This document shows positions 22,892 through 32,313 of a DNA stretch of 64,000 bases, piece by piece. The notes under the pieces are model-generated. The model worked only from the letters and a program-made list of their open reading frames with translations, searched no databases and was not told the DNA's origin. Position numbers and translations under genes: made by a program. The stretch is from an uncultured Oscillospiraceae bacterium (GTDB lineage: Bacteria > Bacillota > Clostridia > Oscillospirales > Oscillospiraceae): NCBI GenBank assembly GCA_947631595.1, contig CANRLZ010000001.1, positions 1 through 64,000 on the forward strand, given 5' to 3'. How positions within the stretch are numbered: the first letter of the stretch is position 1; each line of letters opens with the position of its first letter.

Positions 22892-23075
22892 CCCGCCGCC
22901 TCCTTTCCGCCTACGCTGGGTTGGTTTTTCCTAACAAAACATCATAGCACAAATTCCCCAAGATGAAAAGAGGGCGGTCACAGAAAGTTTACAGGCCCTG
23001 TCCTTGTATTCCAGGGGACATTGTGTTAGAATACCTTCGTGTCCGTTTGTCCCCTTTTGGAAAGGAGGGACTTTT

Positions 23076-25100
<2,025 letters not shown>

Positions 25101-25109
25101 ATTTTCGCG

Positions 25110-25147
25110 AAAAACATCCCCGGCCCACCTGGGCCGGGGATGTTTTT
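25110..25147. terminator. Terminator copy, left flank of dispersed repeat A
   Basis: AAAAACATCCCCGGCCCACCTGGGCCGGGGATGTTTTT. Confidence 0.93.
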
Positions 25148-25354
25148 CAGCTTGTCAAAAAAGCCTCGCAGAGTTTCGCGCCGCAGGGCGCGAAAGACTC
25201 ATAAGAAATTTTTTCCGGCGGCGTGTACGTCGGAAAAAATACATCTCGGCCCGCAAACGTGCGAGCCGGCCGCCCTCGCGGCGGCCGGGGAGTGCGCTGC
25301 AGCGGGCCGTAAAAAATGTCAAAGAAGCGGCCCTGCCGCTTCTTTGACAGTCTC
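25148..25354. mobile_element. Dispersed 207-bp structured repeat, copy A (MITE-like, non-coding)
   Basis: CAGCTTGTCAAAAAAGCCTCGCAGAGTTTCGCGCCGCAGGGCGCGAAAGACTCATAAG...TTTGACAGTCTC; ~97% identical to 32074-32280 by eye; several internal hairpins. Confidence 0.85.
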
Positions 25355-25392
25355 AAAAACATCCCCGACCCGCCTGGGCCGGGGATGTTTTT
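25355..25392. terminator. Terminator copy, right flank of dispersed repeat A
   Basis: AAAAACATCCCCGACCCGCCTGGGCCGGGGATGTTTTT, 36/38 identical to 25110-25147. Confidence 0.93.
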
Positions 25393-25398
25393 GTGCGG

Positions 25399-26691
25399 TC
25401 ATGCCTCCGCGGTTCCCAGCAGGAACCCGTCTCCGGCGGACTGGATCCGCACCGGCAAGACCCGGTTGTGGAGGTCCCGCCCCGGGGCTTTCACCAGCGT
25501 GTAGTTGGGAGCGTGGCCCTGGTAAAGCCCGTCCCGCTCCTCTTCAAAGAGCACGTCCAGCACCTTGCCCACCTGCCGCTCCAAATACGCCTGGCGCAGG
25601 GTGTGGGCCAGGTCGCCCGCCCGCTTTGCCCGGCGCTTTTTCTCCGCCGCGGGCACCTGATCGGGCATCCGCGCCGCCGGGGTGCCCGGCCGCCGGGAGT
25701 AGGGGAAGACGTGGAGGGCGGAGAAGGCGCACCGCTCCACAAAGTCCAGGCTCTCCCGGAAGTCCTCCTCCGTCTCGCCGGGGAAGCCCACGATGAGGTC
25801 GGTGGTGAGGCCGGGGTCGTCGAAGGTCCGGCGCAGCAGCTCCACGGATCGGAGATACCCCGCCGGGTCGTACCGGCGGTTCATGGCCTTCAGCGTCCCG
25901 GCGCAGCCGGACTGGAGGGAGAGGTGGAAGTGGGGGCAGAGGTTGGGGAGCTTGGCCGCCCGGCGGCAGAAGTCCTCCGTCACCGTCCGCGGCTCCAGGC
26001 TGCCCAGGCGCAGCCGCACCTCCGGCGCGGCCTCCGACAGGGCCTCCAGCAGGTCCATAGGTTCCGGCTTGCCGGGCAGGTCCCGGCCCCAGGAGGAGAG
26101 TTCGATGCCGGTGACCACCATCTCCCGGTAGCCCTCCGCCGCCATGTGCCTGGCCTGGGCCACCGCCCGACCCAGGGGGAGGGAGCGCACCGGCCCGCGG
26201 GCGTAGGGGATGATGCAGTAGGAGCAGAAGTTGACGCAGCCGTCCTCCACCTTGAGCATACACCGGGTCCGACCGGTCAAGCCCCCGGCGGGCAGCTCCT
26301 CAAAGGCCCGGCGGGCAAAGGCGTCGTCCACCGCCGTCACCGGGCCGGAGCGGTGGGCCAAGGTCTGTTCCAGCAGCGCCCAGAACCGCTCCCGGCCCCC
26401 GGTCCCGGCCACCAGGTCGGCGCCCAACTCCTCCGCCGCGCCGGGGTGGGTCTGGGGGAAACAGCCGCAGACGGCCAGCACCGCCTCCGGCCGCTCCCGC
26501 CGGACGCGGCGGATGACCTGGCGGTTTTTTTGGTCGCTGACGGCGGTGACGGTGCAGGTGTTGATGATGTAGGCGTCCGCCTCCGCCTCAAAGGGAACCT
26601 GGGTGTGCCCCCGGGCCGCCCCCTGCCGCTCCAGGGCCTGGGACTCGTATTGGTTGACCTTGCAGCCCAGGGTGTAGATGGCAAACCGCAT
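25399..26691 (-). CDS. mtaB: tRNA methylthiotransferase MtaB (MiaB-like radical SAM)
   Basis: MRFAIYTLGCKVNQYESQALERQ; VKVEDGCVNFCSYCIIPYARGPVRS (CxxxCxxC); DLIVGFPGETEEDFRES. Confidence 0.93.
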   Translation of the reverse strand: MRFAIYTLGCKVNQYESQALERQGAARGHTQVPFEAEADAYIINTCTVTAVSDQKNRQVIRRVRRERPEAVLAVCGCFPQTHPGAAEELGADLVAGTGGRERFWALLEQTLAHRSGPVTAVDDAFARRAFEELPAGGLTGRTRCMLKVEDGCVNFCSYCIIPYARGPVRSLPLGRAVAQARHMAAEGYREMVVTGIELSSWGRDLPGKPEPMDLLEALSEAAPEVRLRLGSLEPRTVTEDFCRRAAKLPNLCPHFHLSLQSGCAGTLKAMNRRYDPAGYLRSVELLRRTFDDPGLTTDLIVGFPGETEEDFRESLDFVERCAFSALHVFPYSRRPGTPAARMPDQVPAAEKKRRAKRAGDLAHTLRQAYLERQVGKVLDVLFEEERDGLYQGHAPNYTLVKAPGRDLHNRVLPVRIQSAGDGFLLGTAEA

Positions 26692-26783
26692 GGAAAGACC
26701 CCCTTGCGCTTTGGGCGAGAGTTTGGTAAAATAGTCGCAATTATTGTACACGCCCACACTTGAATTTGCAAGGAGATAGTCCC

Positions 26784-32040: not shown

Positions 32041-32073
32041 AACGCGCCCTCTCCCACGGGAGAGGGCGCGTTT
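32041..32073. terminator. Terminator copy, left flank of dispersed repeat B
   Basis: AACGCGCCCTCTCCCACGGGAGAGGGCGCGTTT. Confidence 0.92.
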
Positions 32074-32280
32074 CAGCTTGTCAAAAAGCCTCGCAGAGTT
32101 TCGCGCCGCAGGGCGCGAAAGACTCATAAGAAATTTTTTCCGGCGGCGTGTACGTCGGAAAAAATACATCTCGGCCCGCAAACGTGCGAGTCGGCCGCCC
32201 TCGCGGCGGCCGGGGAGTGCGCTGCAGCGGGCCGCAAAAAATGTCAAAGAAGCGGTCCGACCGCTTCTTTGACAGTCTCC
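32074..32280. mobile_element. Dispersed 207-bp structured repeat, copy B (MITE-like, non-coding)
   Basis: CAGCTTGTCAAAAAGCCTCGCAGAGTTTCGCG...TTTGACAGTCTCC; differs from copy A by about 5 substitutions and small end/homopolymer indels. Confidence 0.85.
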
Positions 32281-32313
32281 AACGCGCCCTCTCCCACGGG
32301 AGAGGGCGCGTTT
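32281..32313. terminator. Terminator copy, right flank of dispersed repeat B
   Basis: AACGCGCCCTCTCCCACGGGAGAGGGCGCGTTT (33/33 identical to left copy) followed by TTT. Confidence 0.92.

Follow-up and report, generated by a model that had tools for sequence, protein, structure and literature searches.

A putative IS1182-family MITE flanked by duplicated terminator hairpins in an Oscillospiraceae genome

The ftsH-mtaB locus and the copies of the repeat

The window analysed here is a stretch of 64,000 nucleotides from an uncultured Oscillospiraceae bacterium, and all coordinates without an accession refer to it. Between ftsH and a convergent open reading frame of the MiaB/MtaB methylthiotransferase type, which we take to be mtaB-like (the name rests on the preliminary description and on general knowledge), lies a 207-bp repeat, copy A, with a copy of the same terminator hairpin abutting it on each side without a gap. 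A second copy, copy B, is bracketed by a different hairpin and has one additional base on its right side relative to its left (Table 1). The coordinates and the 36/38 identity reported for copy A in the preliminary description are exact. Its further claim that the hairpin does not belong to the element agrees with the unrelated hairpins of copy B and with the locus-specific hairpins elsewhere, and its claim that the element has no transposase is also correct, as the 207 bp hold no transposase gene. The terminal inverted repeats of copy A match each other imperfectly. On the minus strand, the right-end hairpin with its six T forms a terminator-like site reading inward, as is frequent at IS ends.

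Table 1. Coordinates of copies A and B of the element, their parts and their neighbours in the window.
Feature	Position	Strand	Basis or remark
ftsH, convergent upstream neighbour of copy A	23004..25100	+	
Left terminator hairpin copy, copy A	25110..25147	.	target-site duplication, 38 nt
Copy A, IS1182-type MITE, 207 bp	25148..25354	+	copy search of the source genome
Left terminal inverted repeat of copy A, CAGCTTGTCAAAAAAGC	25148..25164	+	end type of IS1182-family transposons (CAGNCTGTC[A/G]AA[A/G]AA)
Conserved structured core (CCTCGCAGAGTT, P1, P2 with RCRYGYR loop)	25164..25255	+	covariance-model score 107.7 bits
P3, long hairpin GGCCCGC...GCGGGCC, distal arm variable	25246..25309	+	outer stem covaries among relatives
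Right-end hairpin of copy A, terminator-like stem then six T	25317..25349	-	layout as for the hairpin inside the IS1182 transposon end
Right terminal inverted repeat of copy A, reverse complement GAGACTGTCAAAGAAGC	25338..25354	-	
Right terminator hairpin copy, copy A	25355..25392	.	36/38 identical to left copy
ORF, presumably mtaB-like, convergent downstream neighbour of copy A	25399..26757	-	
Left copy of 33-nt terminator hairpin, copy B	32041..32073	.	unrelated to copy A hairpin
Copy B of the element, 206 bp	32074..32279	+	
Right 33-nt hairpin, copy B	32281..32313	.	33/33 identical to left copy

The source assembly (1.73 Mb, 79% complete) contains at least 27 full-length copies of the element with 93-100% identity, plus fragments, several of which lie at contig ends. 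Both neighbouring genes could be read for 19 copies, and 16 of these are located between convergent genes. Neighbours were chosen and oriented by GC3 bias, since in DNA this rich in GC the longest open frame assigned orientations that made no sense.

IS1182-type ends and a conserved structured core

The ends of the element match those of IS1182-family transposons of the same lineage (related Clostridia), and the element thus qualifies as an IS1182 derivative. For example, at its left end a hairpin precedes CAGCTTGTCAAAAAAGCCTCGC, just as a hairpin precedes TCAGCCTGTCAAAAAACCTCGCC at the left end of a remnant IS1182-type transposon in the source genome. In congener G001 a hairpin with AGTTTGTCAAAAAA stands ahead of a transposase frame, and in G025 the right-end type of the element, GAGACTGTCAAAAAAG, lies between a hairpin and the transposase frame. 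A full transposase of a related genus (476 aa) scores 388.6 bits against the NCBIfam IS1182 model NF033551 (cut-off 270) and also matches PF05598, PF13751 and PF01609; within the terminal repeat region of its transposon lies a hairpin, a feature shared with the right end of the element. A search of the source assembly (1.73 Mb, 79% complete) and of five congeners gave no intact IS1182 transposase gene, only internally deleted, truncated or distant forms. Short, without a transposase gene, bounded by terminal inverted repeats and dispersed in multiple copies that have target-site duplications, the element is by its sequence an IS1182-family MITE. Mobilization in trans by an IS1182 transposase is inferred from sequence alone.

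A 92-nt core and the hairpin that follows it are conserved in other genera, and neither this core nor the copies in those genera were noticed in the preliminary description. In an alignment of 29 sequences, 96.5% of the cells of the predicted structure pair, and 28 of the 47 predicted pairs have changes on both sides; none of 500 shuffles reaches the observed values, and sliding the partners by 1-3 columns destroys the covariation signal. It should be noted that this last control favours the structure somewhat, because the structure was predicted from the same alignment. With a covariance model, the core was detected in 32 of 300 genomes and 18 of 148 genera of the order. This survey used stricter filters and scored at most 14 candidates per genome, so copy counts are lower bounds. 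Neither the element nor the core has a match in Rfam (Rfam 15) at the gathering score, nor any credible match at low scores, and the core was absent from the autonomous IS1182 transposons at about 80 loci checked.

It is possible, although we hold this only tentatively, that the core is itself the functional unit, a structured RNA gene that has spread by means of borrowed IS1182 ends, with terminator duplication as a side effect. The two-sided changes, the shuffles and the occurrence of the core in 18 genera, with ends that vary between genera, all support such a role. So does the excess of G.U over A.C cells on the plus strand (96 to 8 by hand count, and 28 to 8 without the three columns in which G.U is commonest), which suggests selection on a plus-strand RNA, with the reservation that counts from related copies are not independent. 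Against it, a scan of 25000-25500 found no promoter-like site, the terminators on both sides should block read-through, there are no expression data, and conserved structure without a known function is common among MITE families. This possibility is compatible with the explanation preferred below, since the latter concerns how the element moves. In its fuller form, which we likewise regard as no more than a tentative proposal, the core would be an undescribed structured RNA or strand-specific folded element, carried across the order as cargo of IS1182-type ends and inserted by hairpin duplication, so that each copy is insulated between two terminators; the RNA function is inferred. The core offers a definite candidate for a new RNA family, one that occurs in a sequenced, named species, Vescimonas fastidiosa.

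Duplicated hairpins, empty sites and autonomous transposons

When the copies in the source genome are turned to one orientation, a full hairpin abuts the element on its left in all 27, and the same locus-specific hairpin is present on the right in 26, the exception being L020, in which the right copy is truncated. Hairpin sequences vary from locus to locus. The duplication is 17-40 nt long in these 26 copies (median 32.5), and its two arms differ in length by no more than 1 nt in at least 22 of them, so the cut points are symmetric about the hairpin dyad. The right copy at L005 has apparently collapsed within the hairpin; its 17 nt is therefore a minimum, and the shortest duplications need caution. 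The duplicated stretch starts with A in all copies but one and ends with T in nearly all. As a control for chance, a flanking duplication of at least 17 nt across a 207-bp gap was found at none of 20,000 random window positions, and a hairpin foot on a given side occurs at about 2% of window positions.

The preliminary description had asked whether every copy is flanked by a locus-specific duplicated hairpin, which is the case for 26 of the 27, and had proposed that the target is chosen by structure and not by sequence. The latter is supported by hairpins that differ at each locus and by a duplication whose length tracks the hairpin at each locus, as expected of a structure-directed reaction and not of a fixed stagger. 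The proposal of an unusually long duplication stands insofar as the duplication is long and structure-directed, but not as a fixed length of 33-38 bp. Direct repeats of the IS1182 family may reach about 60 bp.

Orthologous sites without the element are consistent with insertion into a single terminator at most loci examined. At both the ftsH-mtaB and the L012 locus, two congeners lacking the element have one terminator, and at the L008 locus two congeners carry the homologous terminator once, beside another, unrelated hairpin. The L026 locus is ambiguous: in congener G001 (L336, G001:C24:18700-18900) two related hairpins stand about 40 bp apart with no element, an arrangement that is unexplained and could be the scar of a lost copy or of independent origin. 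The earlier idea that the element entered a terminator and left a copy of the hairpin on each side is thus upheld by the duplications and by empty sites that are mostly single, with L026 as the one unresolved locus.

The same data bear on a scenario in which insertion is random and copies survive only at terminators, the hairpin pairs being pre-existing or products of gene conversion. An intergenic insertion does least harm between convergent genes, and the two hairpins without an element at L026 are what such a scenario would allow. Purging by itself, however, makes no duplications, and each locus has its own duplicated hairpin, in mostly identical copies that adjoin the element and match the insertion point, with a length that follows the hairpin at each site. 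Together with the relatives that show a lone terminator at two loci and, at a third, the homologous terminator only once, this leaves survival without target choice very unlikely.

In other genera, exact direct repeats of 16 nt or more flank 30 of the 71 core copies examined, and 22 of these 30 repeats contain a hairpin of at least 6 pairs. Only counts from real copies are used here, since the random-position null was contaminated by real copies in the same loci. The ends of the element vary between genera yet resemble IS1182 ends. On the 861-kb replicon of Vescimonas fastidiosa, similar, partly diverged hairpins were seen by eye on both sides of three of the five copies displayed. This plasmid-labelled record (pMM35_01, NZ_AP023416.1; L352, 438830-478934) has 22 places similar to the element, and looks like a chromid or a part of the chromosome because it carries ftsH, dnaB, rplI, rpsR, ssb, argS and proS.

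Three further arrangements were seen among the related copies. One copy (L092, G004:C18) is flanked by two different terminator hairpins. Two others (L056, G005:C83, and L097, G001:C45) are interrupted directly past P2 by a GC-rich insertion longer than 100 bp. This insertion is a second repeat family that also lies beside other copies (L083 and L093).

The same behaviour is observed in autonomous transposons. Of 50 IS1182-type transposons whose two ends and flanks could be read, including loci in the complete genomes of Chakrabartyella piscis and strain CCNA10, 32 are bracketed by duplications of 20-41 nt, with hairpins at both feet in every case. The remaining 18 lack a matching duplication by the test of the script; most of these are flanked by a hairpin on at least one side, and the hairpins often differ.

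Proposed mechanism and relation to known systems

DDE transposases join the 3' ends of a transposon to 5' phosphates of the target, and the stretch between the joints is duplicated by repair. The explanation that we consider highly probable as a whole is that the element is an IS1182-family MITE moved in trans into terminators chosen by shape. An IS1182-type DDE transposase would recognize the ends of the MITE and join them to the palindrome of an intrinsic terminator, most commonly a bidirectional terminator between two convergent genes. Each strand would be attacked at the 5' side of the hairpin, equidistant from the dyad, as for an extruded cruciform. With joints at the 5' feet of both hairpins of such a cruciform, gap repair would copy the whole hairpin onto both sides of the element, and each neighbouring gene would retain one hairpin. 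The sequences themselves show the copy number, the matching ends, the exact and symmetric duplication of hairpins, the empty sites and the like outcome in autonomous IS1182 transposons. Movement in trans by a specific enzyme and the extrusion of a cruciform, for which there is no experiment, are inferred, as are the retained terminator function of the two hairpins and the harmlessness of the insertion to its host. Counting against this explanation, besides the lack of an intact transposase gene in the assemblies searched and the 18 IS1182-type loci without a matching duplication, many copies in G004 and in other genera have lost the duplication or never had it.

Attack at the 5' feet has been drawn as a model (pathway b of PMC5678879), in a paper that reports another route for IS1272 itself, one that removes the stem-loop. 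The duplications described here fit pathway b, as far as can be judged from sequences alone, and provide many natural examples of an outcome that had previously been theoretical, the duplication of a whole target stem-loop. IS1272 and TnSha1 of Staphylococcus also belong to the IS1182 family and also target stem-loops without sequence preference, several of them confirmed terminators (PMC4923244, PMC5678879). In IS1272 the stem-loop is replaced or deleted without duplication, and the target stem-loop of TnSha1, for which several targets were confirmed as terminators, is likewise lost (PMC4923244). Replacement of the IS1272 type was rejected for the 207-bp element, which is flanked by a duplicate of the entire hairpin at 26 of its 27 sites.

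The IS1182 family has previously been reported to include palindrome-targeting members, and according to a summary target duplication is not universal among its members, which may recognize a DNA structure (PMC12056078). The system of the element has its end type and its transposase family in common with other IS1182 transposons, and differs from what was found described for them in the systematic duplication of whole terminators, seen here in 32 autonomous and 26 MITE copies. The suggestion of a possibly undescribed terminator-targeting mobile element needs amending to the extent that the kind of element, an IS1182 MITE, is known. Neither systematic duplication of whole terminators in this family on such a scale nor the conserved core was found described in the literature searched, which left out most subscription papers. 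To our knowledge, bacterial MITEs have short duplications. RUP, BOX, Correia and ERIC are likewise short, non-coding, structured, multi-copy and intergenic (review PMC10969869 and general knowledge), in contrast to which the duplication at the 207-bp element is as long as a hairpin and its core occurs in five families of an order. For a short, gene-less element of a gut bacterium, insertion into a terminator, with a copy of it remaining on either side, suggests a way into a compact genome that does little harm.

We give very little credence to a retroelement resembling a group IIC intron instead of a DNA transposon. Such introns are generally known to prefer terminator hairpins as insertion sites, by a different mechanism, and the element is highly structured. 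No intron family appears even among its low-score Rfam matches, and its terminal inverted repeats and long target duplication suit a DDE transposon; ends held in common with IS1182 transposons already contradict this origin. The identification was rejected, as neither group II intron RNA domains (Rfam) nor reverse-transcriptase features were found. That the terminator copies arose by misassembly around the repeat can practically be dismissed: the assembly is fragmented and several contigs end inside the element, but the flanks differ at every locus and the pattern recurs in the complete genomes CP092441 and AP018533 and in the Vescimonas record NZ_AP023416.

The duplicated hairpins also offer a view of exchange between copies. 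In CCNA10 (AP018533), the IS1182-type copies L177 and L191, separated by about 3.3 Mb in record coordinates, have one hairpin in common, on the right of L177 and on the left of L191, which suggests recombination between the two. Among the 18 unduplicated cases at least this one pair fits exchange between copies, and locus-specific duplicated hairpins could act as barcodes for tracing such rearrangements.
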